NCBI GenBank assembly: GCA_905480645.1
Contig: CAJQRC010000037.1
Span: 1-64,000, forward strand
DNA: 64,000 bases
Source of the DNA: an uncultured Tateyamaria sp.
GTDB lineage: Bacteria > Pseudomonadota > Alphaproteobacteria > Rhodobacterales > Rhodobacteraceae
Direction of reading: 5' to 3'
In this document: one piece after another, positions 40,361-58,617 of the stretch
How positions within the stretch are numbered: the stretch's first letter is position 1
How the letters are laid out: every line of letters begins with the position of its first letter
Translations under genes and position numbers: made by a program
The notes under the pieces: generated by a model
Told to the model about the DNA's origin: nothing
The model's input: the letters and a program-made list of their open reading frames with translations, nothing else
The model's database searches: none

Positions 40361-41668
40361 TTACCAGGCTAACATTGCTATTGGGTTTTCTAGATTATCA
40401 ACGATAGCAGTTAATAGTTTAGAGCCAAGAGTGCCGTCTATTGTTCTATGGTCAACTGAAAGTGTCACGGACATTACTGTTGCAACACCCAATGTTCCAT
40501 CATCCCGGACAATAGGTCTCTTTGTACCAGCGCCTATGGCTAAGATTGCTCCATGAGGTGGGTTAATAACAGCGTCGAAGCTGTCTATACCAAACATTCC
40601 TAAATTGGATATTGCAAAACTACCGCCTTGATATTCATGTGGCGCAAGCTTTCGATTTCGTGCGCGTGCAGCTAGGTCCTTCATTTGAGAAGATAAGGTG
40701 GACAATGATTTTTTATCTGCATCTTGCAAAACTGGTGTGAATAGCCCTCCTTCTATTGCAACAGCGACTGCTACGTCTGAGGATTTAAGCTTCAATATCT
40801 TGTCACCAGCCCATACCGCATTGGCGTCTGGCACTTGTTGTAATGCTAAAGCGCAAGCTTTGATTATGAAATCGTTAACTGAAATTTTCACACCGCTATC
40901 TGCCAGTTGCCTGTTTAATTTACCTTTTAGATCTAATATTTCGTCCAGCATGATGTCACGACGAAGATAGAAATGTGGTACAGTTTGCTTTGCTTCTGTA
41001 AGGCGCGCAGCAATTGTCTTACGCATACCGTCGAGCTTGATGATTTCGTATTCACGTTTTTCATAGATTTTGGTTACGTTATCGTCTGATAATCTGGAGG
41101 GTGATAAAACCGTTTCACGCACTGCGTCGGCATTGGCATCGTATAAGGGTGGGTTATTTATGGTTGTGATGGCTTTTTCTACGTCGGATTTTATAATACG
41201 ACCATGAGGAGCAGTTCCTTTTATTGTATTTAAATCTAGCCCTTTATGAGCAGCTATACGGCGAGCGAGGGGGGATGCAAAAATACGCTGCTCACTCTTG
41301 TTGATACTATTGTCTGTCGTAACCACCTTTTTTGGATCAGACTCTTTTGTTAATAAAATTTTGGACTCTTGCTGCGCCGGGGGCGTTTTTCGGGCATCGG
41401 TCAAATTCATATCATCAGTACTTTCACCGTCTTCTAACAATATAGCAATTACGGTTTTGACTTTTATACCCTCTGAACCCTCTGGAACCAATATTTTGGC
41501 GATTACACCTTCATCAACAGCTTCAAACTCCATTGTAGCTTTGTCTGTTTCAATTTCGGCTAAAAGATCACCAGATGAAACAGTATCGCCTTCTTTTATA
41601 AACCATTTAGTCAGCGTGCCTTCTTCCATTGTTGGTGACAGTGCCGGCATGAGAATTTCTATAGGCAT
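40361..41668 (-). CDS. pdhC: Pyruvate dehydrogenase E2, dihydrolipoamide acetyltransferase
   Basis: 435 residues: one lipoyl domain ([12 protein letters not shown], lipoyl Lys43), a peripheral-subunit-binding domain at about 135-170 ([29 protein letters not shown]) and a C-terminal catalytic domain. The catalytic motif is [12 protein letters not shown] near 405. The usual DHRxxDG-A/G is conserved. It transfers acetyl groups to CoA and forms the core of the complex. It is third in the leftward pdhA-pdhB-pdhC operon, 10 bases after pdhB. The E3 gene (lpd) is at 57220. Confidence 0.95.
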
Positions 41669-41678
41669 GTCCGGATCC

Positions 41679-43043
41679 TTAACGATAAGTTACTTGTTTT
41701 ACGGCCGTAATAACTTCTTCTGTCGTAATTAAAGCATGTTTTTCGAGATTTGCTGCATATGGCATTGGCACGTCTTTACCGGTGCAATTAATCACAGGTG
41801 CATCGAGATAATCGAAGGCTTCTTGCATTACTACCGAGCTAATATAATTGCCAACACAGCCCTGCGGCCAGCCTTCTTCGACCGTTACACAGCGGTTAGT
41901 TTTCATTACTGATTGCAAAATCGCTGGGGTATCCATCGGACGCAATGTACGCAGGTCAAGGACTTCGGCTTTGATGCCGTCTTCTAACAGCTTGTCTGCT
42001 GCTTCAATTGCATATTTCATACCAATACCGAATGAAACGATTGTAACATCTGAACCTTCACGCCAAATTCGCGCCTTACCAAATGGAATGGTAAAATCAT
42101 CAATTTCGGGAACATCAAAAGCTTGCCCATATAGGATTTCATTTTCAAGGAAAATCACTGGGTTGTCGTCACGGATAGCCGTTTTCATCAACCCTTTAGC
42201 GTCTGATGCTGAATAAGGCATGACGACTTTTAGGCCTGGCACTTGCATAAACCAAGCTGCGTAATCTTGACTGTGTTGAGCACCCACGCGAGCTGCTGCT
42301 CCATTTGGGCCACGGAAAACCATTGAGGCGCCCATTTGGCCTCCAGACATATAAAGGGTCTTTGCCGCGGAGTTTATTATGTGGTCCATTGCTTGCATGG
42401 CAAAATTGAATGTCATGAATTCAACAATTGGGCGTAATCCACCAAATGCAGCGCCTACACCGATTCCAGCAAAACCATGTTCAGTAATTGGCGTATCAAT
42501 AATGCGTTTATCGCCAAACTCATCCAACATCCCTTGTGAGATTTTGTACGCACCTTGGTACTCAGCAACTTCTTCGCCCATCAGAAAAACGCTTTCATCC
42601 CGTCGCATTTCTTCTGACATTCCATCACGCAAGGCCTCGCGTACAGTTTTTTTCTGCACTGGAGTGCCTTCAGGGTAATCAGGACTTTGGCTTATTTTAT
42701 GAACTGCTGGTTTAGAGTTTAGAGCGGAAGACTTGGTAGATTGTACCGTTGGTACGTTCTCCACTATTGGGGAAAAAGATTGAACTGTGTCAATTTTTTC
42801 TCCAACTTCAACTATAACCGCGATCACGGTATTAACTTTGACAGCCTCGGTACCCTCTTTGATAAGAATTTTGCCAATGATGCCCTCATCAACGGACTCA
42901 AATTCCATTGTGGCTTTATCTGTTTCAATCTCTGCGATAATATCTCCCGACGTGACAGTATCGCCTTCTTTAACTAACCATTTAGTTAATGTGCCTTCTT
43001 CCATTGTGGGAGACAGTGCAGGCATGAGAATTTCCGTTGCCAT
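41679..43043 (-). CDS. pdhB: Pyruvate dehydrogenase E1 beta with N-terminal lipoyl domain
   Basis: 454 residues. An N-terminal lipoyl domain (lipoyl Lys43 in [12 protein letters not shown]) almost identical to that of PdhC is joined by a Ser/Val-rich linker (about 80-130) to the E1 beta transketolase domain, starting [14 protein letters not shown]. This lipoyl-E1beta fusion is a known alphaproteobacterial variant. With PdhA it decarboxylates pyruvate and reductively acetylates lipoyl groups. It lies 16 bases after pdhA and 10 before pdhC. Confidence 0.95.
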
Positions 43044-43059
43044 GATTTAGATTTTTTCC

Positions 43060-44049
43060 TTAAGCATAGATGTCTGTCCAAAGCTCACCCAACGCTGGTT
43101 CGGGACTATCTTTAGCAAACTCGGCACTTGCATTAACAACTTCTTTTATTTCTTTATCTATTGATTTTAAATCATCTTCGGAGGCATATTTGCCAGTCAG
43201 TAGTATTGATCGAACTGCTTCGATTGGATCACGTTCATCGCGCATTTTTTGAACTTCTTCACGTGTGCGATACTTGGCCGGGTCCGACATTGAATGACCC
43301 CGATAACGATATGTTTTGATTTCTAAAATATATGGACCTTTACCTGCCCTGCAGTGGTCAACCGCTTTTTGACCCGCCGCCTTTACCGCTAGAACATCCA
43401 TACCGTCAACTTCTTCACCAGGGATACCGTAGGAAGCACCTCGCTCCCAATAACTAATCGATTTTGTTGATCTTTTAGTCGAAGTACCCATCGCGTATTG
43501 GTTATTTTCAATTACAAATATAACAGGAAGCATCCACAGCTCAGCCATATTATAGGCTTCATAAACTTGACCTTGATTTGCTGCACCGTCACCAAAATAT
43601 GTGAAAGTTACATGATCATTTCCTTTGTATCTGTCAGCAAAAGCAAGGCCAGCACCAATCGGAACTTGCGCTGCAACAATACCGTGACCACCGTAAAAAT
43701 CTTTTTCTTTGGAAAACATGTGCATTGAGCCACCTTTTCCTTTGGAGTAACCGCCTTCTCTACCAGTTAGTTCGGCCATTACTCCATTAGGGTCCATGCC
43801 ACATGCCAGCATGTGACCATGGTCTCGGTAGGAAGTAACACGTTTGTCCCCATCTTTAGCAGCGGCCTCAAGGCCCACCACCACTGCCTCTTGTCCTATA
43901 TATAGATGGCAGAATCCACCAATTAATCCCATACCGTATAGTTGCCCCGCTTTTTCTTCAAAGCGACGGATCAGTAACATGTCTCTGTAATAAGTAATAA
44001 GTTCTTCAGCCGAGACATTGGGCTTTGTTTTGGCTTTACGCGCTGCCAT
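43060..44049 (-). CDS. pdhA: Pyruvate dehydrogenase E1 alpha
   Basis: 329 residues. The thiamine diphosphate motif runs from GDGAANQGQVYEAYNMAELW to IENNQYAMGTS, and the phosphorylation-loop-like segment YRYRGHSMSDPAKYR is present. It catalyses pyruvate decarboxylation with PdhB. It is the first gene of the operon, with a strong AAGGAGG ribosome-binding site. A palindrome at 44074-44092, shared with the lpd promoter, lies 25 bases upstream. Confidence 0.96.
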   Translation of the reverse strand: MAARKAKTKPNVSAEELITYYRDMLLIRRFEEKAGQLYGMGLIGGFCHLYIGQEAVVVGLEAAAKDGDKRVTSYRDHGHMLACGMDPNGVMAELTGREGGYSKGKGGSMHMFSKEKDFYGGHGIVAAQVPIGAGLAFADRYKGNDHVTFTYFGDGAANQGQVYEAYNMAELWMLPVIFVIENNQYAMGTSTKRSTKSISYWERGASYGIPGEEVDGMDVLAVKAAGQKAVDHCRAGKGPYILEIKTYRYRGHSMSDPAKYRTREEVQKMRDERDPIEAVRSILLTGKYASEDDLKSIDKEIKEVVNASAEFAKDSPEPALGELWTDIYA

Positions 44050-44073: not shown

Positions 44074-44092
44074 TAGTTTAGCGTTAAACTAT
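44074..44092 (-). promoter_or_regulatory. Palindromic operator upstream of pdhA (same as at lpd)
   Basis: Read on the leftward strand this is ATAGTTTAACGCTAAACTA, with arms AGTTTA/TAAACT. It lies 25 bases before the pdhA start, just after a TATTAT that could be the -10 box, a repressor-like position. The same 19 bases in the same orientation occur 33 bases upstream of lpd (57169-57187). A shared regulator of the pyruvate dehydrogenase genes is inferred. Confidence 0.75.
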
Positions 44093-44175
44093 ATATAATA
44101 CAATTGCCTTAAAACGTGCGAGTTGCTTTTGCTCGAAAGAGCAAATTTTGTTTATTCCATTAATTTTATATACTA

Positions 44176-44475
44176 TTAGCGAATAACAATCTCGTTTGCA
44201 CGTAACATACCAAGGATAGAACGAGATTGTTCATCTAAAAGATCCAGGTCCAAGTAATCGTCGGATAGTCGTTTTGTAAGGTTTTCCATCTTTGCCACAT
44301 CAGTTTGAACGGCTACAAGCTGCGCAGCTAAGTCGCTTGCCTCTGCATCAATTTCTGCACGCATAAATAACCCAAAATCACCTTGCACAGCGGCAAAAGT
44401 AAAATAAATCCCTAAAGCGAATGCTGTAACGAAATAAATAATCATTCCCAATGTTGGGCGGGTTTTGCTGGTCAT
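44176..44475 (-). CDS. FtsB/DivIC-family septum formation initiator protein
   Basis: 99 residues: a short cytoplasmic N-terminus, one membrane helix (about 10-30) and a coiled coil from about 38 to 72, then LRANEIVIR. The size, topology and position just upstream of pdhA match the alphaproteobacterial DivIC/FtsB proteins of the division complex (partners FtsL and FtsQ). AAGGCAGAG serves as the ribosome-binding site, preceded by a small hairpin at 44490-44509. It is probably transcribed apart from pdhA, since a promoter-like region and operator separate them. Confidence 0.82.
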   Translation of the reverse strand: MTSKTRPTLGMIIYFVTAFALGIYFTFAAVQGDFGLFMRAEIDAEASDLAAQLVAVQTDVAKMENLTKRLSDDYLDLDLLDEQSRSILGMLRANEIVIR

Positions 44476-44591
44476 GTGCTCTGCCTTGTGCCGTTTTACT
44501 TTGAACGGCTTTTTTCATTATTGCACATGTGATTCGCTCTGTGAATCCCCTTTCTACAATTTTTTACCAGCTAAAAAATTAGAATAAAATA

Positions 44592-45776
44592 TTATAGCAA
44601 GGCCGCAATACCTGGTAGTTTTTTACCTTCCATCCATTCAAGAAACGCGCCGCCTGCTGTAGAAACGTAACTGAATTCGTCGACCACTCCAGCTTGATTT
44701 AACGCTGCTACGGTATCTCCACCGCCCGCAACGGTGATCAGACTTCCTGATAAAGTGAAAGCGGCGGCGGCTTTTGATGCTTTCATAGTTGCTGTATTAA
44801 ATGGCTCAATCTCAAAGGCTCCGAGTGGACCATTCCAAATTAAAGTTTTGAGAGATCGAAATTCTGTTATGATGTCTTCCGTTGTCTTATCACCAGCGTC
44901 AAGAACCATTTCATCTGGTTTCAATTGAGTTTGAGTGTTCAGTGAAATAATTTTATTGGGTGCGTGAGCGGCGAATATGGTTGAAATACGACCGTCTCTG
45001 GGCAGAATAATGCGGCAGTTTTCAGCATCGGCGGTGGCAAGAATACTTCGTGCAATATTATGTAAATCAGGTTCTTGCAATGAAGAGCCAAGTTCTGCAC
45101 CTTGAGCGGCCAGAAATGTATTAGCCATGCCTCCGCCAATAACCAATGTGTCAATTTTTTTGACAAGATTCTGCAATAATTCTAATTTACTAGATACTTT
45201 AGCACCGCCAACCACAGCACCAACTGGACGGAGGGGATTGGATAAAGCGCTTTTTAATGCGTTCAATTCAATTTGCATTAAGTGGCCTGCGCAGGACGGT
45301 AAAAGTTTTGCGACCCCCACAGTTGAGGCATGGGATCTATGACAGGTTGAAAATGCGTCATTGCAAAAAATGTCCCCTAGTGTCGCTAAAAATTGTGCCA
45401 GCGCTGGAGTGTTCTGTTCTTCCATTTCGTTAAATCGCATATTTTCAAGTAATATTACTGCATCTGAGGGTTTCTCATTTATCCAGTCACGTGACGGATT
45501 ATCGGTGAAGAAAACTGGACATTTAAAAGTTATTTCTAAAGTTGGAACTAACTGTTGGAGAGACAACTTAGGATTTACTTTGCCATTGGGGCGGCCTAGA
45601 TGGGCTAGAAGGATGGGACTGCCGCCCTTTGATTTTATATCATTAATTGTTGTGGCAATCCGCTCAATCCTTGTTGCATCGGTTATGTGACCGTTTTCCA
45701 TCGGAACGTTGATATCGACGCGCGTTAGAACGCGTTTGCCATTCAATTCCATATCATCCAGTGTTTTCCAATTCAT
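44592..45776 (-). CDS. pgk: Phosphoglycerate kinase
   Basis: 394 residues, standard length. The N-terminal substrate region is [22 protein letters not shown] (the usual D-N-VP), followed by [20 protein letters not shown] and the C-terminal nucleotide-binding [13 protein letters not shown]. It interconverts 1,3-bisphosphoglycerate and 3-phosphoglycerate with ADP/ATP. I placed the start at 45776 ([11 protein letters not shown]) behind AAGGAG; the frame extends 20 codons upstream without family similarity. It is transcribed alone, divergent from the cyclophilin pair. Confidence 0.96.
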
Positions 45777-45903
45777 CGTTGACACTCCTTGATTTGAATT
45801 TGGACTATGCATCGCTACAATTTCCCCGCAGGTCAATGCATCACTTGTTCCTTAGCCACTCAAGGCTTAGATACTAGAAAAACCATAAATCAGAAAGAAA
45901 GCT

Positions 45904-46410
45904 ATGTCCGAGATCAAAGACCCAGAAAACACTATCCTTATGGAACTTAAGGGTGGAACAGTTACAATTGAACTAATGCCCGATGTAGCGCCTCTCCATA
46001 CTGCGCGTATGAAAGAACTCGTTAGGTCAGGTGAATATGATAATGTCGCTTTTCACAGGGTGATTGACAGCTTTATGGCACAAACGGGCGATGTTCAACA
46101 TGGCGACATGGAGGACGGATTTAACATTCGAATGGCTGGTACTGGTGGCTCTGATAAACCAGATTTGCCCGCTGAGTTTTCAAAATTACCGCATGACCGA
46201 GGTTCAATTGGTGCGGCCCGCTCTGCCAGCCCTGACAGTGCTAACAGTCAGTTTTTTATCAATTTTGCAGATAATAACTTCCTCAACGGTCAATATACTG
46301 TGTACGGCCGAGTTACGGCAGGTATGGAGCACGTTGATGCTATTTCTCGCGGTGAACCACCTGCGGAGCCTGACCGTATGATAAGCGTTAAGGTAGCAGC
46401 GGATGTATAA
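45904..46410 (+). CDS. ppiB: Cyclophilin-type peptidyl-prolyl isomerase (cytoplasmic)
   Basis: 168 residues with no signal peptide. Active-site elements are FHRVIDSFMAQTGD (catalytic Arg), ANSQFFINFADN and LNGQYTVYGRV. It catalyses cis-trans isomerisation of Xaa-Pro bonds. It overlaps the next gene, a secreted paralogue, by 8 bases. Confidence 0.93.
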   Translation: MSEIKDPENTILMELKGGTVTIELMPDVAPLHTARMKELVRSGEYDNVAFHRVIDSFMAQTGDVQHGDMEDGFNIRMAGTGGSDKPDLPAEFSKLPHDRGSIGAARSASPDSANSQFFINFADNNFLNGQYTVYGRVTAGMEHVDAISRGEPPAEPDRMISVKVAADV

Positions 46411-46957
46411 AGCTCTACTTACCGTGCTCGCTTTAGCCGCAACACCAGTTTTGGCGACAGGCATAGAGATAAATGTGGAGGGCGAGGGTGCAAATGGCGT
46501 CATTGTCATTGATCTTTTTGAGGATGTTGCGCCTGCTCATGTGAAGAGAATTGCTAACCTAGCTGCTGAGGGCAAATATGATGGTGTGGCGTTTCATCGG
46601 GTAATTGACGGATTTATGGCGCAAACTGGAGATGTTCAATTTGCAAATATAACAGATTATGATTCCAATGCTGCAGGCCGGGGTGGCTCTGAATACCCTG
46701 ACATTAAAGCAGAATTTTCTGAGAAACCATTTGTGCGTGGAACCGTAGGAATGGCCCGTAGCCAAGATGTGAATTCGGCTAACAGCCAGTTCTTTATTAT
46801 GTTTGATCGGGGTGATTTTTTGAATGGACAATATACTGTGGTCGGAGAAGTAACCTCAGGATTGGAGGTGCTTGATCAAATTAAGCGAGGACAGTCTCAG
46901 TCAGGAGCGATAGATGGTGCTCCAGACGTGATGAAGTCAGTAGTCGTAACGAACTAA
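46403..46957 (+). CDS. Cyclophilin-type peptidyl-prolyl isomerase (exported paralogue)
   Basis: 184 residues with a clear signal peptide (MYKALLTVLALAATPVLA), so it should act in the periplasm. The cyclophilin core is intact: FHRVIDGFMAQTGDVQF, ANSQFFIMFDRG, LNGQYTVVGEV. It is a tandem paralogue of the gene in front and is coupled to it by an 8-base overlap, giving one isomerase for each compartment from one mRNA. A strong bidirectional terminator follows 3 bases after the stop. Confidence 0.93.
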   Translation: MYKALLTVLALAATPVLATGIEINVEGEGANGVIVIDLFEDVAPAHVKRIANLAAEGKYDGVAFHRVIDGFMAQTGDVQFANITDYDSNAAGRGGSEYPDIKAEFSEKPFVRGTVGMARSQDVNSANSQFFIMFDRGDFLNGQYTVVGEVTSGLEVLDQIKRGQSQSGAIDGAPDVMKSVVVTN

Positions 46958-46959
46958 AA

Positions 46960-46995
46960 AAGCTTCGGCACTTGAAAGTGCCGAAGCTTAATTTT
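46960..46995. terminator. Bidirectional terminator between cyclophilin and bactofilin genes
   Basis: Thirteen-base perfect arms (AAGCTTCGGCACT and AGTGCCGAAGCTT) around a TGAA tetraloop, with an A-run to the left and AATTTTAT to the right. It separates convergent genes and can end transcripts from both sides. Confidence 0.93.
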
Positions 46996-47016
46996 ATCTC
47001 AGGGAATAGAATAACG

Positions 47017-47517
47017 TCACCCAGCAACAGGCGGTGGAGTTGTGGGGATAGCGCCTTTCGGCTTGCTACCAGAATTGAGAGGGTCATCTTGTCTCTGAAC
47101 AGATCCCTCAAAGTGAGCACCGCTCTCGATTGCTATTGTTTTGTGAATAATATCCCCCTCAACACGGGCTGTAGATGTCAGCCGCACTTTGAGACCACGA
47201 ACACGCCCAACGATTCGGCCGTTTACGATTACATCGTCAGCTACTACTTCACCTTTGATTGTAGCACTTTCTCCGATCGTTAACAGATGAGCGCGTATGT
47301 CACCTTCCACAGTGCCCTCAACTTGGATATCACCAGTAGTCTTCATATTGCCAGTCACATGTAAATCAGCAGACAAAATAGACGCTGGTGGTTTTGTTTT
47401 CGGTGGGTTTGACTTGTATTCGGACGATTTTGGTGCCGTCGGTGCTGCTCCTACTCCTGCAGGGGATGCTGCATCCAAACTTGGACTTGGTTCGTTAATT
47501 TTATTTTTAGAAAACAT
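47017..47517 (-). CDS. Bactofilin (polymer-forming cytoskeletal protein)
   Basis: 166 residues. A central beta-helix of short repeats (about 45-140: LHVTGNMKTTGDIQVEG, VEGDIRAHLLTIGESATIKGEV, and so on) lies between disordered Pro/Ser-rich ends, the bactofilin/DUF583 architecture. Bactofilins assemble into membrane-associated filaments that place cell-wall enzymes. It overlaps the upstream M23 peptidase gene by 11 bases, a coupling that suggests the two act together in shaping the wall. Confidence 0.9.
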   Translation of the reverse strand: MFSKNKINEPSPSLDAASPAGVGAAPTAPKSSEYKSNPPKTKPPASILSADLHVTGNMKTTGDIQVEGTVEGDIRAHLLTIGESATIKGEVVADDVIVNGRIVGRVRGLKVRLTSTARVEGDIIHKTIAIESGAHFEGSVQRQDDPLNSGSKPKGAIPTTPPPVAG

Positions 47518-48841
47518 CGTTTGCTGCCTTGATATAGATCATCGGGTTAACCGCTTTATCGCCGACGCGAACTTCATAATGCAAATGCACTCCAGTTGCT
47601 CGACCTGAAGAACCCATAGCACCAATTCTATCTCCACGCGAGACCCTTTGCCCAACTTTTACTTTAAGCCTGGATAAGTGGGCATATCTCGTTTCGATAC
47701 CGAATTCATGTTGGATCTTAATCAGACGACCATAACCCGAATGCCAGCCCGAATGCGTTACCACGCCATCTGCAGTTGCATAAATTGGCGTTCCACTTGA
47801 CGCAGCAAAGTCAACACCACGATGCATCCTACGCCCACCAGTTTTAGGATCTCGTCGTAGTCCGAATTGGGAGGTGAAGCGGAATGCGGATTTAACAGGT
47901 GTTGCAAAGGGTGCTTTTTGCGCCGCAATACGGTAAAGGTTTAGCTGATCCATTTGATTTAAAATTTTGTTTGCTCGTAAGTTGTCAGGGGATGGTTTGA
48001 GGTCACCTTGGATCGAGAAAACAAGTGGTGTTAACGGTCCGCCTTGGCCGGAATATCTTCCTCGAACTTGTTCTATGATACGCTCTGTAGACATCCCTGC
48101 GGAGCGAAACATTTTATCAAGTGGTGCGACAGAGATAGTCATAGCCTCCTCAAGTTGCCGAAAAATTTGGTCATTTTCTTCCTGCATTAAAGCTATTTCT
48201 AATTTTAAATCCTCTGCGGTTATAAGTGCTGTTTGCATGTCATCGGTTGTCTGGTCACGCTCGGCAGCCGTACGTGTCAAGGCACCGGCCACAAAGTCTA
48301 TCAAACCATTGGGAGCTACTACTTTATTAACTTTTTGTGTTTCACCGTTTGGGGATTGTTTATCAAATTGAGCCAATTGATTTCTAACTGTTTCGCGATC
48401 TTTCATCGTACTGCGTAACGTATTTTGAATGACCTCGATACCGGATTCCAATTCCCGGCGGCGAGTTTCAGAAGACAGCAATTGGGATTGCATTATCGAA
48501 ATTTGTGTTAACGCTGAAGTGAAGCGTTCCTGTGCTGCAAGAGCTTCCTCGGCACGTTTGTCTCGTTGGAGCGACAAATCGTTTAATCTTTGTTTGTATG
48601 TAGTTTGATCACGCTTGGCCTGCTCACGAAAGTTACCTGCACCAATACTATCCATAAGTATTATAGCTGTCGCGACAATCGTCCAAGCAACAATAAGTGA
48701 GCTACCAGCTAAAGCAATTAGTTGAGTTCCAGAGCGCAGCCGGATGAAACGAGTATCGTTATCGGACTTTAGAAATACCCTGCGTTCTGGAAAAAAACTC
48801 TCCAGTAGCTTATGCAACTTTATTTTAAGATTTGTTCGCAA
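47507..48841 (-). CDS. M23 (LytM-type) metallopeptidase, membrane anchored
   Basis: 444 residues. A basic N-terminus and one membrane helix (about 38-62) are followed by a long coiled coil (about 75-160) and a C-terminal M23 domain. The metal ligands are in MHRGVDFAASSGTPIYA (His, Asp) and VHLHYEVRVG (His-x-His). It should cleave peptide crosslinks of peptidoglycan, or act as an amidase activator if inactive. The domain layout matches the rhodobacterial M23 proteins found with bactofilins. It is co-transcribed with the bactofilin gene downstream. Confidence 0.9.
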   Translation of the reverse strand: MRTNLKIKLHKLLESFFPERRVFLKSDNDTRFIRLRSGTQLIALAGSSLIVAWTIVATAIILMDSIGAGNFREQAKRDQTTYKQRLNDLSLQRDKRAEEALAAQERFTSALTQISIMQSQLLSSETRRRELESGIEVIQNTLRSTMKDRETVRNQLAQFDKQSPNGETQKVNKVVAPNGLIDFVAGALTRTAAERDQTTDDMQTALITAEDLKLEIALMQEENDQIFRQLEEAMTISVAPLDKMFRSAGMSTERIIEQVRGRYSGQGGPLTPLVFSIQGDLKPSPDNLRANKILNQMDQLNLYRIAAQKAPFATPVKSAFRFTSQFGLRRDPKTGGRRMHRGVDFAASSGTPIYATADGVVTHSGWHSGYGRLIKIQHEFGIETRYAHLSRLKVKVGQRVSRGDRIGAMGSSGRATGVHLHYEVRVGDKAVNPMIYIKAANDVF

Positions 48842-49011
48842 ATAAATGTCCTTAGTATCAGACGAGTTGGAAAATCGAGAATGATGTTATTGAGCCCAAT
48901 TTTATAATAAAGTGTACATTAAATCGGGGCAAGCCTAGCTGATTATTTAGCATATTTCAGGTATGAAATAGTGTAAATTTGGCGGAAAACCGCGCATATT
49001 AATATCGTCGT

Positions 49012-49821
49012 TTAGTCTGCGACGGCAAGTGGCCAGTAAAAATCTGGTGGCAGGCCAGCTTCAGCTCGTTTTTCCTCATTGAACGGTGGCTTAAGAGGGC
49101 TGTGAAAATAGGTCTGAACTAAGTCGTGAAAAACAGTTTTTGGGTCAAGATTTTCTCTACCGCAAAGAAAATGGAACCATTTTGAACCGTAAGCAACGTG
49201 AGCTACTTCCTCTGCGTATATAGTTTCCAAAGCATCTACTACATCATCAACTTTTGCCTTGCGAAAGACCTCTATCATACCGGGTGTAACATCAAGGCCA
49301 CGGGCTTCGAGAACCATGGGAACAACTGCAAGTCTACCCATAAAATCGTTTGCTGTATCTTCAGCTGCACGCCACATACCGGCATGCGCAGGCAGTGCTC
49401 CATAATGGCTTCCCATTTTTTCAAGGCAATCACACATTAAATTAAAATGTTTTGACTCTTCGTCGGCGGCTTTTACCCAATCATCAAAAAAACCAATAGG
49501 CATTGGTATGTGAGAAAACCGTGCGATGATGTCCCAATGTAGGTCTACTGCGTTGAGTTCTATGTGAGCAACAGCATGCAATAACGCAATGCGGCCCTGA
49601 GGTGAGCCGGAGCGACGCCGCGGCACGTCACGCGGGCTGAGCAATTGTGGTGTGGCGGGTCTTGCTGGGTGATTTGGTGGATTGGCCGTGCCAACATCTG
49701 GTTTGTTTTCGTTTTTCCTTGCCATATGCCATTTTTTGGCGAATCCACGTGAAAGAGCTGTTTTTTCACGCCCGCCTGCGGTTCGAAGAACTTCTTCCGC
49801 CATTTGTGCCAGCGATTGCAT
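49012..49821 (-). CDS. DUF455 family ferritin-like protein
   Basis: 269 residues, helical. Ferritin-like diiron residues can be seen in HAVAHIELNAVDLHWD, AADEESKHFNL and YAEEVAHVAYGSKWF (E-x2-H patterns). DUF455 proteins have no settled function; a diiron oxygenase or hydroxylase activity is a family-based guess. I chose the start at 49821, where ATG overlaps the bcp stop (TAATG); the longer frame would run into bcp. It is second in the bcp operon. Confidence 0.8.
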   Translation of the reverse strand: MQSLAQMAEEVLRTAGGREKTALSRGFAKKWHMARKNENKPDVGTANPPNHPARPATPQLLSPRDVPRRRSGSPQGRIALLHAVAHIELNAVDLHWDIIARFSHIPMPIGFFDDWVKAADEESKHFNLMCDCLEKMGSHYGALPAHAGMWRAAEDTANDFMGRLAVVPMVLEARGLDVTPGMIEVFRKAKVDDVVDALETIYAEEVAHVAYGSKWFHFLCGRENLDPKTVFHDLVQTYFHSPLKPPFNEEKRAEAGLPPDFYWPLAVAD

Positions 49822-50285
49822 TATAGTTTTTCTATTAATGCTAAAACTTCCTCTGCATGGCCTGCAACTTTTACTTTCTGCCATACCATTGCAATATGTC
49901 CATTTCCATCAATGAGATATGTGGTCCTTTCAATACCCATGTACTTTTTCCCATACATATTTTTCTCTTTCCAAACTCCATAATCTTCGCAAACGCTTCC
50001 TTTCTCATCAGATAATAATGGTACTTTTAGATTATGTTTAGTTGTGAATTTTACGTGACTACTGATGCCGTCTTTTGAAATGCCAAAAACCTTTGCGCCT
50101 TTTGCAACAAATGCTTCTATTTTAGCGGAAAACGCTATAGATTCAGTTGTGCACCCAGGAGTGTCATCCCTTGGATAAAAAAACAAAACAACTGGATTAC
50201 CTTTTAGTGACGATAGGGTAATCATAGTGCCATCAGTCTGTGGTAGTGTGAAGTTTGGTGCTTGGTCCATAACATTTAACATCAT
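49821..50285 (-). CDS. bcp: Thiol peroxidase, Bcp/PrxQ type
   Basis: 154 residues. The peroxidatic Cys45 lies in DDTPGCTTES. Position 50, where E. coli Bcp has its resolving Cys, is Ile here, while Cys99 (GSVCEDYGVW) is retained. The enzyme therefore either works as a one-Cys peroxidase or uses Cys99 or an outside thiol. It reduces H2O2 and organic hydroperoxides. It is divergent from the YhdP-like gene, with only 67 bases between them. Confidence 0.93.
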   Translation of the reverse strand: MMLNVMDQAPNFTLPQTDGTMITLSSLKGNPVVLFFYPRDDTPGCTTESIAFSAKIEAFVAKGAKVFGISKDGISSHVKFTTKHNLKVPLLSDEKGSVCEDYGVWKEKNMYGKKYMGIERTTYLIDGNGHIAMVWQKVKVAGHAEEVLALIEKL

Positions 50286-50352
50286 CTGGCCTTTTTCAGA
50301 TTTATAGTGAATTTAGTAGGGGATTATAGGGCATACCAGTAAGAATACAGTA

Positions 50353-53300
50353 ATGAATGATAATGAAAATAATAAACCTTTGAAACAACCTAAACCTGTG
50401 TACAAAAGCTTTTGGCAACGTGTTGCAATTGTCAGTTTTGTTTTTCTGCTTTTCGTGATGATTACTTTGAGTTTGATTTACTATCATGTAATAGGTTGGA
50501 ACTTTAAAGCTCCAGATTGGGTTCGTAATAGTATTGAAATTCGTTCAGCGGAAGCTTTAGGCTCGGCAGAATTAAATTTTGATGCGTTGGATTTGTTAAT
50601 TGATTCTAGCTTAAAACCGCAAGTTTTAATGACAAATGTTAAGTTAACCACAAAAACTGGAATTGAGATTATAGCATTTTCTGAGGTCCGTGCAGAGCTA
50701 TCACTTAGTCATCTAATTCAAGGTCAATTACAACTTACCAACATGAGTGTAAGCGGCGTTTTCGTCAGTTTGCGACGCTTGCCAAACGGGTCAATTGTCG
50801 TGTCAGGCGGTCTGGACCTTACTGCGCCGCACCAGCAGGCCGCAACAGTTGCTCAGTTGATCAACCGATTTGATAGATTATTGAATTTGCCAATTCTGGC
50901 TGATCTGACTAGCGCTGAGATTCAAGCGCTAAATTTACAGATAGAAGATCAATCTTTGGAACGGATATGGACTATTGATGGTGGCCGCTTGAGCTTCAAA
51001 CGTGATGGTAACACCATACAGGCAAAAACGGACCTTGCTTTGCTTAATGGAGGTCAAGGTGTTGCGACCTTAGAGGCAAATTACAAAAGTATAATTGGCG
51101 CTACCGCAGCAGATTTTGGTTTAAATATAAAGGATATTGAGGCTGGTGACCTTGCTGCTTTAGCGCCTCCATTCGCTTGGCTGAACGTGCTTCATGCTCC
51201 AATTTCAGGTTCATTAATAGGCGGAATTACCGATGAAGGTTCGTTGCTTCCTGTGAACGCTACGCTGGCCATAGGAGAGGGAGTATTGCAACCAATCGAT
51301 GAAACGCGTCCCATCCCGTTTTCCTCGGCGCGAAGTTATTTTCGTTATGATCCAGCGCTCAGTATTTTGACTTTTGACGAGCTGTCTGTGGTTAGCCCAT
51401 GGATTACCGGCGAAATGATTGGGCAAGCTTTCTTGGATGTAAGCGACATTGGAGGTTTTGAAAATCTTGTAGGCCGATTTAAATCCAATACAGTTCAGGT
51501 CAACCCGGACGATTTATATCCTGAAGCTATCTCAATAGAGTCTGTTGAGATGGATTTTAAACTTTTGCTCAACCCTTTCCGTCTGCACATTGGTCAGTTG
51601 CTGCTTCATGACAACGGACAGACTTTACAAGTTGAAGCAAATTTGGAAACTGAGCCAGACGGTTGGAGTTATAATTTCGATGCGCATTTGGATGGTCTAT
51701 CATCTGAAAGGTTACTGGCAATTTGGCCTTCAGGCTTAAAACCGCGTACTCGTAGATGGATTAGTGAAAATATTATAGCTGGCAGCCTAAGCAACATAGA
51801 CGCAGTGCTGCGCGGACAACCAGGTTTGAAGCCCAACTTGTTTTTGGGATTTACCTACGAAAAAGGTGTGGTGCGGTATGCAAAAAACCTGCCTTTTATA
51901 ACCGATGCAAATGGTACGGCTACCCTTCTTAATGACCGTTTTGTCGCAACTTTAAACAAAGGGAAAGTTAAGGCTAAGAAAGGAGGAATTGTCGATGTTT
52001 CTGGAACATCGTTTATTATTCCAGATGTTACGTTTGGGCCTGGGGCGCCTGGTGTAGTGCGATTAAAAACAAGTAGCTATGTAACTGGGATGCTCTCTCT
52101 TTTAGATCAGCCACCGTTATCAATTATGAAAAAAGCTGGTCGTGACCCCACGATTGCAGATGGACGCCTGAAGGTAGCTGGTACACTCTCGATGCCGCTT
52201 AGACGTGGGTTAAAGCCAGAAGATTTTACTTTTAGTATGCTCGGTACCGCTTCCGATATTGTTAGCACAAAAGTGGTTGAAGGCAGACTTCTTGAATCTA
52301 AGACTTTACAGATCTCAGCCGACAACCTTGGAGTTACAATTTCTGGAAAAGGAATGCTGGACAAAGTAGCATTTGATGTAGTTTGGAACCAACCGCTTGG
52401 TAATAAGTCTATGCCAAGCAAGCTGGAGGGCTCATTAGAATTATCTGAACATATGTTAAAAGCATTTAGTATCGGTCTGCCGTCCAAAATGGTGTCAGGT
52501 GAAGGTTCTGCGAATATTGAGCTTGCCATGCCTTTACGGGGTGGGGCGCCAAGTTTCCGGCTCGATAGTAATTTGACGGGTCTGCAAATTTCTGCACCAT
52601 GGATCAATTGGAGCAAGCCAGCCGCTACGTATGGAAAACTATCTATTGCCGGCGTTCTTAGTAACCCCCCGCGTGTGGAAAATATTGATATTGATGTGCC
52701 AGGTTTGAAAGCAAATGGAAGTATTACTTTATTAGAGGCTGATGGTGGACTGAATTTGGCCCGCTTTGACGCAGTGCAAGTGGGTGAATGGATAAAAGGG
52801 CCCGTTGATTTGGTTGGGCGTGGTGCTGGGGTGCCGCCAGCTATTGTTGTTCGCGCTGGAATATTAGACTTGAGAAAAGCAAATTTTGGTGGCGATAATA
52901 CGAAGGGTGGTGTGAAAAAAAATGACGAATTAATAGCTGATCAACCTATAAGCGTATCGCTGGAACTTCTTCAGGTTACGGACACTATATCTCTTACAGA
53001 TTTGAATGGTGAATTTGATTTATCTGGCGGACTTAATGGAAAGTTCAAAGCCAAAGTTAATAATGGTGCGACTGTCAATGGTCACGTTTTACCGCAGAAT
53101 GGACGTAGTGCTGTTCTGATAACATCCGAAGAAGCGGGTGGTGTGGCTGCTTCGTTAGGAATCTTTAAAAAAGCCCGCGGTGGTACGCTTTCACTCACTT
53201 TATTACCGATTGGAGATGCGTCTTTTGATGGAGTTTTGAACGTGACTGATACAAGCATTCAGGACGCTCCTTTCATTGGTGCTTTACTTAATGCAATAAG

Positions 53301-53790
53301 CATTGTTGGTTTATTTGATCAACTGGACGGCAGTGGCATTCGCTTCCAAGATGTCGAAGCAAAGTTTCGTCTCAATCCATCAAACTTAGTGTTAACACAG
53401 GCCAGCGCGGTTGGCCCGTCTATAGGTTTGTCAATGGATGGCACTCTTGATGCTGCTAACTCAATTTTGGATATGCGCGGGGTAATTTCACCAATTTATT
53501 TGTTAAACGGAATTGGAAGTTTTCTTACTCGTAAAGGTGAAGGCCTGATTGGTTTTAATTATACTCTAAGTGGGCAAACAAGTGAGCCCAAGGTTACAGT
53601 AAATCCCATGTCAGCATTGACACCTGGTGTATTTCGCGATTTGTTTCGTGCCGCTTCTCCGAATTTGTCAACTATAGATGGTGATGCTGCTGTGCCAGAG
53701 TTACCAAAAGCGTTCGTGCTAGATGCAGTCCCGAATTTTTCATCTGAAGAAATGCTGGAAGAACGCCAGCAACGGCTTGATGACCGCTGA
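50353..53790 (+). CDS. YhdP/AsmA-like large envelope protein (DUF3971/AsmA_2)
   Basis: 1145 residues. One N-terminal membrane helix (about 26-46) and then a very long periplasmic part rich in beta-strand repeats. The C-terminal AsmA-like region (from about 940: [46 protein letters not shown]) is typical of the family. Such proteins form bridge-like grooves that help move phospholipids between the inner and outer membranes. The role here is by family. Its 3' end meets queA, which starts 23 bases after the stop or overlaps it, depending on the start chosen. Confidence 0.83.
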
Positions 53791-53812
53791 AAGCGTAGCT
53801 AAAGCCAGTCGG

Positions 53813-54883
53813 ATGAAGCTGAATGATTTTGATTTTTTTCTGCCTGCTGATTTGATAGCTACTCGACCAGCTAAGCCTCGGTCCTCCGCGCGGCTATTAA
53901 TTGCTCAAGGTGATAGTATCCATGATGCATCGGTAACTGACTTGGTGGCTTGGCTTAAACCGGGTGATCTTCTAGTGTTGAACGATACTCGGGTTATCCC
54001 TGCAAGATTAAATGGTTTTCGTTATCGTAAAGGCGATAAAGAAATAACCAAGGCTAAAATTGAAGTAACATTGCTACAACTGGAGCCTGACGGAACATGG
54101 TCTGCTTTGATTAAGCCTTTAAAAAGGATCAATGCTGGTGAAACCCTCGTATTTTCGGAAAAATTGTCTGCAACATTGATGGCTAAAAGTCGTGGTCAGG
54201 GTTTTTTTAGTTTTAATTTACAGGGCGATGATTTTGATGTGGCACTAGGCGAGGCGGGTGCTATGCCCTTGCCGCCATATATCGCCGCGAAACGGCCTGC
54301 AGATTTGCAGGATAAAGAAGATTACCAAACAGTTTGGGCGCGCAACAATGGTGCTGTCGCAGCACCAACGGCGTCTCTACATTTTGATGATTTATTACTT
54401 ACTGCACTTAAAAAACGAGGCGTTCTATTCACCTATGTAACTTTGCATGTCGGAGCAGGAACATTTTTGCCTGTAAAAGTAGATGACGTGAAGTCTCATA
54501 AAATGCATGCTGAATGGGGGCAAGTAAACCAAACTGCTGCCGCAAAAATTGCACAAACAAAGGCTCGGGGTGGTCGTGTCATCCCAGTTGGGACTACGTC
54601 ACTCCGCTTAATTGAAACGATGGCACGGGAATCTGGGCTTGCGCCTTGGGAAGGTTATACAGAGATTTTCATTTATCCAAGCTTTCAGTTTATTGTTTCT
54701 GATGGGCTAATCACTAATTTTCACTTACCCAAATCGACACTTATGATGCTGGTGTCAGCACTCATGGGATCGGATAGAATTATCAGTATTTATCAGCATG
54801 CAGTGGAAAAAAAATATAGATTTTTTTCATATGGCGACGCATCACTGCTGCTGCCAAGCTATAAAATTTCAAAACCGACATAA
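53813..54883 (+). CDS. queA: tRNA preQ1(34) S-adenosylmethionine ribosyltransferase-isomerase
   Basis: 356 residues, the same length as E. coli Que[21 protein letters not shown] opens the protein in the usual way, followed by [17 protein letters not shown], the APTASLHFD motif, TLHVGAGTF and [16 protein letters not shown]. It transfers and rearranges ribose from SAM onto preQ1 in tRNA, giving epoxyqueuosine. I chose the start by family alignment; an in-frame ATG at 53780 adds 11 residues and would overlap the upstream gene. A tgt gene does not follow. Confidence 0.94.
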
Positions 54884-54961
54884 ATAGGTCGCAACTGCTT
54901 GCGAACAATATGTTTAACCTGTGGCAATGGGCTAATGTACATTGTCAAAAGGATGTGTGAC

Positions 54962-56230
54962 ATGCTTCAGGTTCTATCAAGCGCATGGGCGCTTTTGCTA
55001 GGCATGTGTCTGCTTATGGTCGGAAACGGTATGCAGGGCACATTGTTGGGTATTCGAGGAGAAATTGAAGGTTTTTCGACTCTTGAGATGTCCATTGTTA
55101 TGTCGGCTTATTTTGCTGGATTTTTAGGAGGCAGTCGAATGGCCCCTAGTATGATCCGGCGTGTTGGTCATGTGAGAGTTTTTGCCGCCCTCGCATCTTT
55201 AATTTCAGCAGTTATGATACTTTACCCAACTTTTGCTGATCCATGGATATGGACTGTCGGGCGTGTAATTATTGGTTTTTGTTTTTCAGCTGTTTATGTC
55301 ACGGCCGAAAGCTGGTTGAACGAGGCGGCTGATAACTCTAATCGAGGGAAAGCTCTGTCACTCTATATGATGGTTCAGACTTTTGGTATTGTTGCCAGTC
55401 AAGCGCTATTACTGACTGCTGATCCGTCTGGTTTTGTTTTATTTGTCATTCCGTCAGTTTTGGTTTCGATTGCAATAACGCCAATACTTTTGTCGATAAG
55501 CCCTACGCCTGCGTTTGACACCACCAAACCAATGACATTGAGACAGTTGTCTAAATTTTCTCCGTTAGGTTGTTTTGGAATGCTGATCCTAGGCGGTGTG
55601 TTTTCGGCTCAGTTTGGTATGTCTTCAGTTTACGCAGCTCAGGCAGGCTTAAGTATCGGGCAAATCTCTACTTTCGTAGCAACATTCTTTGTTGGAGCAG
55701 TTTTGCTTCAATATCCAATAGGTTGGATCTCGGATCGGATGGATCGCAGAACATTAATAATCTATGTGGCAATGGTTGGTACTGTTGGATCTTTAATTGG
55801 GGTAGCTTTTGGTCATCAATTCGCATTTTTATTAATATCAGCTTTTATAATCGGGGGTACGTCGCATCCATTATATTCCTTGCTGTTAGCGCATACAAAT
55901 GATTTTCTTGAACATGGTGACATGACCGCAGCCTCTGGGGGCCTGGTTTTTATCAATGGGCTTGGGGCGGTTTGTGGTCCTTTGATTGTTGGTGTGTTGA
56001 TGGAAAACATTGGTCCACCTGGATTCTACCTGTATATTGGAGTTCTATTTATTATTCTTGTCGGCTACGCCGCTTATCGTTCTACGCAACGAAATTCAAT
56101 TCCTATTGATGAAACAGGAGCATATGTTGTGATGTCGCAAGCTTCTACAACGCCAGTTTCTATGGAAATTGCACAAGAATATGCCATTGAGGCTGATCTG
56201 GAGGGAGAAGACGACAGCCAAAGTGAGTAA
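54962..56230 (+). CDS. Major facilitator superfamily transporter
   Basis: 422 residues with about 12 hydrophobic segments and a central loop near residue 190-200. MFS landmarks are visible: GGSRMAPSMIRRVGHVRVF between helices 2 and 3 and GWISDRMDRRTLI in the second half. Its substrate is unknown. The C-terminal 40 residues are acidic and cytoplasmic. The start at 54962 (MLQVLSSAWALLLGM) has AAAGG 9 bases upstream; the frame extends 21 codons further without membrane character. Confidence 0.82.
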   Translation: MLQVLSSAWALLLGMCLLMVGNGMQGTLLGIRGEIEGFSTLEMSIVMSAYFAGFLGGSRMAPSMIRRVGHVRVFAALASLISAVMILYPTFADPWIWTVGRVIIGFCFSAVYVTAESWLNEAADNSNRGKALSLYMMVQTFGIVASQALLLTADPSGFVLFVIPSVLVSIAITPILLSISPTPAFDTTKPMTLRQLSKFSPLGCFGMLILGGVFSAQFGMSSVYAAQAGLSIGQISTFVATFFVGAVLLQYPIGWISDRMDRRTLIIYVAMVGTVGSLIGVAFGHQFAFLLISAFIIGGTSHPLYSLLLAHTNDFLEHGDMTAASGGLVFINGLGAVCGPLIVGVLMENIGPPGFYLYIGVLFIILVGYAAYRSTQRNSIPIDETGAYVVMSQASTTPVSMEIAQEYAIEADLEGEDDSQSE

Positions 56231-56320
56231 AGTGTCGCCACTGTCGTATTTCGTGATTAGGTCTACCGATAAAATAGTTGTATCGATTCGTAGGGATTGC
56301 ATGGAAACAGGAGTAAAACC

Positions 56321-56902
56321 ATGGTGGGTCCGGACGACATACTGCGCTTTTGGTTAGATGAGTGTAAACCAGAACAATGGTTTATTGAGGATCAAAATTT
56401 TGATACCCAAATACGGAATAATTTTGTAGAGACATGGCAAAAGGTGGCCGAAGGACAGTTTTCCCTTTGGCTAACATATCCTAACGGGGTGTTAGCGTAT
56501 ATTATTTTAACAGATCAGTTGCCTCGGAACATGTTTAGAAGTGACTCTCGTGCTTTTTCTACTGACAGAGCGGCTTTAGCTGCGGCAAAATCTGCTATCT
56601 CCAAAGGCTGGGATCTTAGAGTTGATCCCCACATACGGCATTTTTTCTATATGCCTTTGGAGCATTCTGAAAATCTTTACGATCAAGATCGGGCTGTACG
56701 GCTTATTCACGAACGCTTAGATAATCCTAAATATTTATTGCACGCACGAGCTCATCGAGAAATTATCCGCCAGTTTGGCCGTTTTCCGCATAGAAATTTG
56801 ATAATGAAGCGCAAGACAACCAGTGTTGAACAGGTACATATCGATGCAGGAGGTTATCAAAGCGTTGTGCGTAGTCTGGAAAAGAAGGATAAAGCTGCGT
56901 AA
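56321..56902 (+). CDS. DUF924 family protein
   Basis: 193 residues. The DUF924 pattern is clear: ILRFWLDECKPEQWF at the start, LAYIILTDQLPRNMFR, HFFYMPLEHSENLYDQ and FGRFPHRN. It is helical (TPR-like fold in the family) and of unknown function. The ATG at 56321 has AGGAG 7 bases upstream, so I prefer it to the ATG at 56297. It follows the MFS gene and may be co-transcribed. Confidence 0.87.
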   Translation: MVGPDDILRFWLDECKPEQWFIEDQNFDTQIRNNFVETWQKVAEGQFSLWLTYPNGVLAYIILTDQLPRNMFRSDSRAFSTDRAALAAAKSAISKGWDLRVDPHIRHFFYMPLEHSENLYDQDRAVRLIHERLDNPKYLLHARAHREIIRQFGRFPHRNLIMKRKTTSVEQVHIDAGGYQSVVRSLEKKDKAA

Positions 56903-57219
56903 AATTGTAATTTATATTTAATCTTTACAAGTTTGAGCTTATCAGCGAAGCGCTTAAGATAAATTTAATTATCAAATCTACTAGTTAGAGTATATCCTAT
57001 TTAATATATTTTAAATGAAACTATTCTACTTTGAAGCTGCAAAGATAAACTGCTATTATTGGAAATTACAAGAAATTAACTCATTTTATTTATCTAATTT
57101 GAGGCGACATTGCGTTGTTTTCTGATATGTTGTTGCTTCGCATGCTTAATATTGAGAAGTCAAAAAAAATAGTTTAACGCTAAACTATATGTACAACAGC
57201 AATCTGTGAGGACTATACG
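56903..57219. other. Regulatory intergenic region upstream of lpd
   Basis: About 315 AT-rich bases. A small hairpin at 56937-56970 (TTATC-AGCG...CGCT-TAA-GATAA) may end the DUF924 transcript. The shared pdh/lpd palindrome lies at 57169-57188. No ORF. Confidence 0.5.
57169..57188 (+). promoter_or_regulatory. Palindromic operator upstream of lpd (same as at pdhA)
   Basis: ATAGTTTAACGCTAAACTAT, with 8-base perfect arms ATAGTTTA/TAAACTAT around ACGC, ends 31 bases before the lpd start. The first 19 bases match the pdhA-upstream site in the same orientation relative to its gene. It is probably the binding site of a regulator common to both transcription units. Confidence 0.75.
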
Positions 57220-58617
57220 ATGGCGGCAAAATCTTTTGATGTGGTAGTTATTGGCTCTGGTCCTGGAGGTTATGTCGCTGCAATAAGATCTGCACAATTG
57301 GGTTTAAGTGTGGCGATAGTGGAACGTGAGAATCTTGGCGGGATTTGTCTCAATTGGGGCTGTATTCCAACAAAAGCGATGCTGCGTTCTGCTGAAGTTT
57401 TGCACCTCATGCACCGTGCCAAAGAGTTTGGCCTAAAAGCTGATAATATCGATTACGATTTAGATGCTGTAGTGAAGCGTTCCCGAAAAGTTGCTGGGCA
57501 ACTATCGAGCGGAATCGGCCATCTAATCAAAAAAAATAAAATTTCACTTTTTAAAGGTGAAGGAATGATTCCCGCTAAGGGTCAAGTTTCCATTAAAACG
57601 GGCAAGCAAATAGAAGAGTTAACCGCTAAATCCATTATTTTAGCAACTGGAGCTCGGGCTCGTGAATTGCCCGGCTTGGAAGCGGATGATGAGTTGGTTT
57701 GGACTTATCGCTCCGCACTTACTCCTAAACGGATGCCCAAGAAACTATTGGTGATTGGTTCTGGAGCAATAGGCATTGAGTTTGCAAGTTTTTATAACAC
57801 GCTTGGAGCAGATACTACTGTTGTGGAGGTGTTGGATCGAATTCTGCCAATTGAGGACGCAGAGATTAGTGCCTTTGCAAAAAAAGCCTTTGAAAAACAA
57901 GGTATGAAGATAATAGAAAATGCTACAGTAAAAAAGTTGGACCGTGAAAAAGGTCTGGCAACTGCCCACATTGAAATTTGTGGTAAAGTTGAGCAGCAAA
58001 CATTTGATACCGTTATTTCTGCAGTAGGAATTGTCGGGAATACCGAAAACCTTGGTTTGGAGGCGCTCGGCGTTCGAATTGATAGGAACCATGTTGTTAC
58101 TGACGAATATTGTCGCACTGATATTGCTGGCATCTATGCAATCGGTGATATAGCTGGTGCTCCTTGGCTTGCACACAAAGCCAGTCATGAAGGTGTGATG
58201 GTAGCTGAGCTGATCGCTAATAAGACACCAGTGCATCCGATAAAACCTAATTCAATAGCTGGTTGTACTTACTGCTATCCACAGATCGCAAGTGTGGGGC
58301 TGACCGAAGCTAATGCTCTACAGGAAGGCTATAATATTAAAGTCGGTAAGTTTCCCTTTATTGGTAACGGCAAGGCTATTGCGTTGGGGGAGCCTGAGGG
58401 CATGATTAAAACTGTTTTTAATGAAAAAACGGGCGAGTTATTGGGTGCGCACATGATTGGGGCTGAAGTTACAGAACTTATCCACGGTTACATTATTGGA
58501 CAAGCACTTGAAACTACAGAGGAAGACTTAATGCATGCAGTCTTTCCACACCCAACATTATCGGAAATGATGCATGAATCAGTTCTCGATGCTTATGACC
58601 GAGTAATTCACATGTAA
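57220..58617 (+). CDS. lpd: Dihydrolipoyl dehydrogenase (E3)
   Basis: 465 residues. FAD motif GSGPGGY (12-18), redox disulfide GGICLNWGC (Cys43/Cys48), NAD motif GSGAIGIEFASF near 184 and the C-terminal catalytic HPHPTLSE near 447 are all present. It reoxidises dihydrolipoyl groups of 2-oxoacid dehydrogenases with NAD+. The palindrome it shares with pdhA argues that this copy serves the pyruvate dehydrogenase complex. It is transcribed alone. Confidence 0.95.
   Translation: MAAKSFDVVVIGSGPGGYVAAIRSAQLGLSVAIVERENLGGICLNWGCIPTKAMLRSAEVLHLMHRAKEFGLKADNIDYDLDAVVKRSRKVAGQLSSGIGHLIKKNKISLFKGEGMIPAKGQVSIKTGKQIEELTAKSIILATGARARELPGLEADDELVWTYRSALTPKRMPKKLLVIGSGAIGIEFASFYNTLGADTTVVEVLDRILPIEDAEISAFAKKAFEKQGMKIIENATVKKLDREKGLATAHIEICGKVEQQTFDTVISAVGIVGNTENLGLEALGVRIDRNHVVTDEYCRTDIAGIYAIGDIAGAPWLAHKASHEGVMVAELIANKTPVHPIKPNSIAGCTYCYPQIASVGLTEANALQEGYNIKVGKFPFIGNGKAIALGEPEGMIKTVFNEKTGELLGAHMIGAEVTELIHGYIIGQALETTEEDLMHAVFPHPTLSEMMHESVLDAYDRVIHM

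Follow-up and report, generated by a model that had tools for sequence, protein, structure and literature searches.

PdhR is a repressor of the GntR family in gammaproteobacteria. It is described as responding to pyruvate and as regulating the pyruvate dehydrogenase operon and its lpd (PMC5343134, available part). In this work, we analysed a 19-base operator-like sequence present before pdhA and before lpd in a 64,000-nucleotide stretch of DNA (the window) from an uncultured Tateyamaria sp. of the family Rhodobacteraceae, and we propose that it is very probably the operator of a MarR-family repressor acting on pdhABC, lpd and the malic enzyme gene maeB, and in most sister species on the lipoyl synthase gene lipA. 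Rhodobacteraceae, roseobacters above all, are abundant marine heterotrophs; if the proposal is true, one small repressor on pyruvate dehydrogenase, E3, malic enzyme and, locally, lipoyl synthase constitutes a single testable control point of the pyruvate node. The parallel with PdhR would be one of function, control of pyruvate dehydrogenase and lpd, and not of membership: the candidate regulator belongs to the MarR instead of the GntR family, the operator appears to differ from that of PdhR, and the available part of the PdhR source does not name malic enzyme as a target.

RSP_1663 of Rhodobacter sphaeroides is a protein that we take to be CceR, from a bacterium presumably of the same broad group as that of the window. 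Its predicted targets were given as pdhAB, malic enzyme, mdh, pckA, zwf, pgi and others, with two spacer classes (Imam et al., 2015; PMC4344238, available part). The present system resembles it by the GTT...AAC inverted repeat and by pdhAB and malic enzyme being among the predicted targets in that source, but the published predicted regulon is broad, whereas nearly all sites listed here (72 of 75) are at pdhA, lpd, maeB or lipA; moreover, the sites here are GTT-N8-AAC and track a MarR protein. This candidate, the C9 protein below, shares with the repressors MarR, HpaR, OhrR and MftR the winged-helix domain, the fold and, putatively, a palindromic promoter site. Members of the MarR family usually control catabolic, efflux or stress genes, whereas the C9 protein, which scores over no NCBIfam cut-off, would control central carbon genes. 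RccR of Pseudomonas, a regulator of primary carbon metabolism that responds to the carbon source (PMC5489143, available part), is likened to it by description only, as a carbon-source-linked regulator. A literature search, with RegPrecise outside its reach, surfaced no MarR or dedicated regulator of Rhodobacteraceae pyruvate dehydrogenase in the available parts of the sources.

The same 19-base sequence precedes pdhA and lpd

The first-pass annotation of the window had reported one 19-base palindrome before both pdhA and lpd, and its coordinates, strands and exact identity were verified: ATAGTTTAACGCTAAACTA is on the minus strand before pdhA and on the plus strand before lpd (Table 1), in the same orientation relative to each gene, as had been claimed. 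The gaps, given as 25 and about 33 bases, were close to the 24 and 32 bases that we measured to the ATG. The inverted symmetry is present but imperfect, one of nine pairs being mismatched in the 18-base core, and the site has the pattern GTT-N8-AAC. The annotation was right that the window holds no further copy: over its whole length, this pair is the sole exact repeat of at least 19 bases, direct or inverted, and the four matches at three or fewer mismatches are the pdhA and lpd sites, each counted on both strands, compared with a mean of 0.02 matches in the shuffled window.

The sites are rare in the genome and conserved in the family

The window belongs to contig C36 in a genome of 3.07 Mb (67 contigs, 99.85% complete), where the motif is not common. 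Three places match at two or fewer mismatches, the window pair and one on contig C38, where a perfect palindrome ends 19 bases before maeB, which encodes a malic enzyme whose C-terminal part is phosphotransacetylase-like. At three mismatches there are two more sites in the genome, both on contig C27, which were put aside as weak.

In the genus, 20 genomes including that of the window were scanned at two or fewer mismatches, with the pattern read backwards as a control. All 20 contained three or four sites, compared with one control match in each of two genomes and none in the other 18. The 19-mer was invariant in an alignment of 19 pdhA upstream regions in which the flanks differed; the rows had been chosen by best motif match, and one of the 20 (L030) was dropped by a start-codon filter. 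Of the 19 other genus genomes, 18 have a second site 13.7–19.6 kb from the pdhA site, an observation of distance; within the genus, the lpd site was read as such in the window's own genome alone.

In the family, one genome was drawn per genus (149 genomes). Sites were found in 115 of the 149 genera, with a total of 261 sites compared with 38 for the backwards control. Among the sites listed (75 of the 261, including two from G020), 72 precede pdhA, lpd, maeB or lipA. When all 97 sites of the examined loci are taken together, some of these loci being hand-picked outside that list, 90 are at one of these four genes, three at an oxidoreductase gene (G027 and G033) and four without an assigned target (L042, L202, L205 and L218). 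The median distance from site to start was 28 bases for pdhA (33 sites), 24.5 for lpd (22 sites, including that of the window), 24 for maeB (29 sites) and 16 for lipA (six sites). The site is thus kept in relatives, at pdhA in the genus alignment and at both genes in the family target list; the set of pdhA and lpd first proposed is upheld, but the regulon is wider and also takes in maeB and, across most of the genus, lipA.

A chance sequence, or a repeat element that regulates nothing, would be compatible with the small number of sites per genome and with the three listed sites that have no assigned target (L202, L205 and L218, L202 and L218 being exact matches). It is contradicted by the target list, in which 72 of the 75 sites fall at four functionally linked genes, and by the scarcity of matches in shuffled DNA, so that its probability is close to nil.

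Of these sites without a target, L202 (site 1501–1518) is in the 2.5 Mb genome G125, upstream of a gene presumed to be threonine-dehydratase-like, which may be a further target. L218 (site 1501–1518), in G063, lies where two convergent reading frames have their 3' ends, and its assignment to lpd (451 bases, 30% identity) was discarded. In six different genomes (L193, L196, L203, L205, L207 and L238) the centre of the site reads AT in place of CG (TAGTTTAATATTAAACTA).

lipA seems to have joined the regulon late and locally, because a lipA site scoring at least 13, located 13–16 bases upstream, was present in 16 of the 19 other genus genomes, whereas 11 lipA promoters, from 10 genomes of other genera, had no site; one further genus, G174, does have a lipA site. 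All 19 other genomes of the genus (4.1–5.6 Mb) have a lipA match; the window's own genome, in spite of its completeness, has none at E 1e-80, possibly owing to lipoate dependence or to an assembly gap.

A MarR-family protein is the best candidate for the regulator

The first-pass annotation had left the regulator unnamed, and a MarR-family protein is now the best candidate. Two genomes from other families within the class, G033 and G027, have the motif (two mismatches) before an oxidoreductase gene that is directly followed by marR on the same strand. The MarR proteins of these two genomes are 38–40% identical to a 150-residue protein of the window's genome (G000:C9:57180-57629, the C9 protein), and the three are near-identical at the predicted recognition helix (T-K/R-G-A-M/I-T-N-T-L). 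The genome has seven MarR-domain matches, among which the C9 protein (L034) was picked for its resemblance to the MarR protein of the motif-carrying operon; the further comparisons, which confirmed this resemblance, covered the C9 protein.

The C9 protein matches PF12802 MarR_2 with 39.6 bits (cut-off 27) and PF01047 MarR with 30.3 bits (cut-off 24.6); no NCBIfam model scored over its cut-off, the best reaching 31 bits for a cut-off of 230. The structural model of the Tateyamaria omphalii orthologue has a mean predicted local distance difference test (pLDDT) score of 91.3, and residues 66–78 form what we take, from the usual MarR layout, to be the recognition helix. Compared with the PDB, this model gave 276 matches at E <= 0.001, and the best 50 of these, all of which we believe to be MarR family members, include E. 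coli MarR, HpaR and MftR with operator DNA. The 18-base length of the palindrome presumably fits the norm for operators of MarR dimers. The C9 protein contains no cysteine, which argues against a thiol switch.

The C9 marR gene is outside the window, between a gene that we take to be nitrilase-like and one that we take to be ubiG. Both neighbours recur, each in 79 of 80 named marR loci, and the closest named relatives of the protein are in Tateyamaria, Sulfitobacter, Ruegeria and Roseobacter. A second MarR protein, 28–34% identical to the C9 candidate, is present in the 19 other genomes of the genus (G001–G019) and not in the window's genome. Regarding the oxidoreductase-marR loci, L040 and L041, which share this arrangement in two distant genomes, L040 has two sites 21 bases apart; the oxidoreductase of G027 (L041) scores over the cut-off of an Acg-type FMN family and shares 55% identity with the oxidoreductase of G033.

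The site co-occurs with the MarR protein

In the first 41 genomes, a homologue scoring more than 100 bits was found in 26, and sites were found in the same 26 plus G037, whose only site has two mismatches and lacks an assigned gene. For the 132 genomes at least 90% complete (the 149 minus 17 under this limit), 103 had both protein and site, 13 the protein only, none the site only and 16 neither (Fisher p 4e-13, uncorrected for kinship). Sites per genome were 2.06 with the protein, compared with 0.26 for the control, and 0 without it, compared with 0.375. Over all 149 genomes the corresponding numbers were 111 with both, 16 with protein only, four with site only and 18 with neither. Two genomes with only a weak paralogue (G043 and G118) were counted as lacking the protein, and one with a fragment at a contig end (G182) as having it. 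The claim that a single regulator acts at both promoters is supported by the rarity of the motif and its conservation at pdhA and lpd in relatives, the two points on which the first-pass annotation had said it could be refuted.

The pdhA promoters of discordant and negative genomes were scored with a matrix built from 90 sites, the null for the pdhA palindrome scores including real sites. PdhA was found in 12 of the 13 genomes with protein and no site at two or fewer mismatches, and 10 of these 12 keep a diverged palindrome at pdhA (score 13.6–24.6). For the 16 genomes with neither protein nor site, eight have PdhA and the other eight lack this PdhA at E 1e-80. None of the seven readable pdhA promoters of the protein-negative genomes has a site (best score -3.0; the eighth is truncated at the edge of a contig), and the lpd orthologues of the eight genomes also have none (8/8, best score -8.6). 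In a tree of 53 PdhA proteins, absence of the regulator corresponds to six changes, at least three of which are forced by well-supported branches; L204 and L240, from incomplete genomes in which no protein was found, were drawn as having the regulator.

The site might instead be bound by a LacI-family central-carbon regulator of the CceR type. For RSP_1663 of R. sphaeroides, the predicted motif is DGTT-N6-8-AACH and the predicted targets include pdhAB and malic enzyme (Imam et al., 2015; PMC4344238, available part), and the present site is the N8 form of this motif. From the available parts of two further reports, MaeB falls on CceR loss in Paracoccus denitrificans (PMC11323563) and CceR has a broad central-carbon regulon in six Rhodobacteraceae (PMC5507952). 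A LacI homologue of the window's genome, possibly the CceR orthologue, also correlates with the sites in near-complete genomes (table 98, 17, 5, 12; Fisher p 5e-6, compared with 4e-13 for the MarR protein). We presume that the searched protein resembles a gluconate-type regulator, and that the central CG step of the site is usual in LacI operators. However, the LacI homologue (E 1e-60) is missing from five near-complete genomes with sites, and it is present in nine of the 16 near-complete genomes without the MarR protein, none of the 16 having a site. The N6 CceR motif gave six matches in this genome at one or fewer mismatches, compared with 23 for the backwards control. Furthermore, CceR is reported to activate gluconeogenic enzymes including MaeB (PMC11323563, available part), whereas the maeB site sits in a -35/-10 spacer. 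From its distribution and from the absence of an excess of the N6 motif, a LacI/CceR protein is an unlikely binder.

Returning to the MarR protein, it is a candidate for a local repressor of pyruvate metabolism from another protein family than PdhR. Whether it is a dedicated Rhodobacteraceae repressor, a non-orthologous counterpart of PdhR with a compact pdhABC-lpd-maeB regulon (lipA being recruited in one genus), so that the N8 sites before pdhAB and malic enzyme credited to the Rhodobacter LacI protein belong to MarR and a previous network model had merged two overlapping motifs, is in our judgement evenly balanced. If true, this would supply the PdhR counterpart and split the regulon that the network model gave to the LacI protein.

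Position of the site and proposed mechanism

The position of the site suits a repressor. This is suggested because the median distance to the start is 24–28 bases for pdhA, lpd and maeB, and because the maeB site takes up the whole 18-base spacer from TTGACA to TAAATT, overlapping the first two bases of TAAATT (a consensus match only).

Malic enzyme and pyruvate dehydrogenase lead from malate to acetyl-CoA, the latter enzyme with a cofactor that lipoyl synthase produces. Beyond the computed sites, targets, conservation and co-occurrence, we infer binding by the C9 protein, repression, inducibility and a single pdhA-pdhB-pdhC transcript. A homodimer of the C9 MarR protein would bind the 18-base palindrome TAGTTTAnCGnTAAACTA, and the bound dimer would block RNA polymerase at the pdhA-pdhB-pdhC, lpd and maeB promoters and, for most sister species, at the lipA promoter as well. 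A small-molecule effector, likely to be near the pyruvate node, would release the repressor from DNA, and this release would turn on together the enzymes converting malate and pyruvate to acetyl-CoA; in some species lipoyl cofactor synthesis (lipA) would be induced together with them.

Several observations weigh against this proposal. The repressor position was seen at maeB alone, in a region that has three promoter-like matches compared with 0.7 in shuffles, and a sigma-70 consensus scan of the pdhA and lpd promoter regions gave no match. A regulator acting as an activator would be compatible with these unrecognised core promoters, but with so short a median distance to the start at pdhA, lpd and maeB, a promoter would hardly fit between site and gene, and the maeB site fills the spacer of a consensus match; we regard activation as unlikely.

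Exceptions to the association of repressor and site also have to be counted. Sites but no protein were found in G068, G103, G113 and G131 (all 74–83% complete); among protein-positive genomes, the pdhA regions of G055 and G136 score only 2.3 and -22.6, and the pdhA palindrome of G058 is 104 bases from the inferred start. Three of the 75 listed sites lack a target, as described above. The co-occurrence of site and protein is strong by count and modest in independent events, because well-supported branches of the PdhA tree provide only three independent pairs (mean 2.8 concordant, 0 opposite, median sign-test p 0.25; L204, L240 and the G120 row left out). Finally, no site at three or fewer mismatches was found in the 80 named marR loci (up to about 10 kb), and these sequences give no sign of MarR autoregulation in Rhodobacteraceae. 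A site near a regulator gene, which the first-pass annotation had named as further support, was found in the oxidoreductase-marR operon of G027 and G033 but in none of the 80 marR loci.

Co-occurrence among related genomes cannot single out one gene, and the regulators compared were the MarR protein and one LacI protein; the site could therefore belong to another regulator that shares the distribution of the MarR protein. This is very unlikely in our opinion, as the motif before the oxidoreductase-marR operon in two distant genomes points to the MarR family independently of co-occurrence, and the predicted recognition helix is nearly the same in the MarR proteins of G027 and G033 as in the C9 protein.

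Genes and sequences next to the window sites

The names pdhA and lpd of the first-pass annotation are upheld by matches to family models (Table 1). The identities of pdhB and of the E2 gene are putative assignments from family features.

Table 1. Operator-like sites and adjacent genes in the window
Feature	Position	Strand	Basis or remark
Operator-like 19-mer, pdhA	44074..44092	-	End 24 bases 5' of pdhA ATG
Operator-like 19-mer, lpd, identical to pdhA copy	57169..57187	+	End 32 bases 5' of lpd ATG
pdhA, pyruvate dehydrogenase E1 alpha	43060..44049	-	TIGR03182, 510 bits
pdhB, E1 beta, N-terminal lipoyl-like domain, downstream of pdhA	41679..43043	-	Open reading frame, translation
E2 dihydrolipoamide acetyltransferase gene, downstream of pdhB	40361..41668	-	Open reading frame, translation
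lpd, E3 dihydrolipoyl dehydrogenase	57220..58617	+	TIGR01350, 553 bits

Upstream of pdhA, a stem-loop with a T-rich tail is present on the plus strand at window positions 44128–44145, and several sister species have an inverted repeat of different letters near the same place. Within about 45 bases upstream of the pdhA site of the genus, the blocks CTCGC and GAATCCTGTA are conserved in most rows of the alignment, the GAATCCTGTA block being largely lost in the window's own genome; these blocks are possibly part of a promoter or a second binding site.

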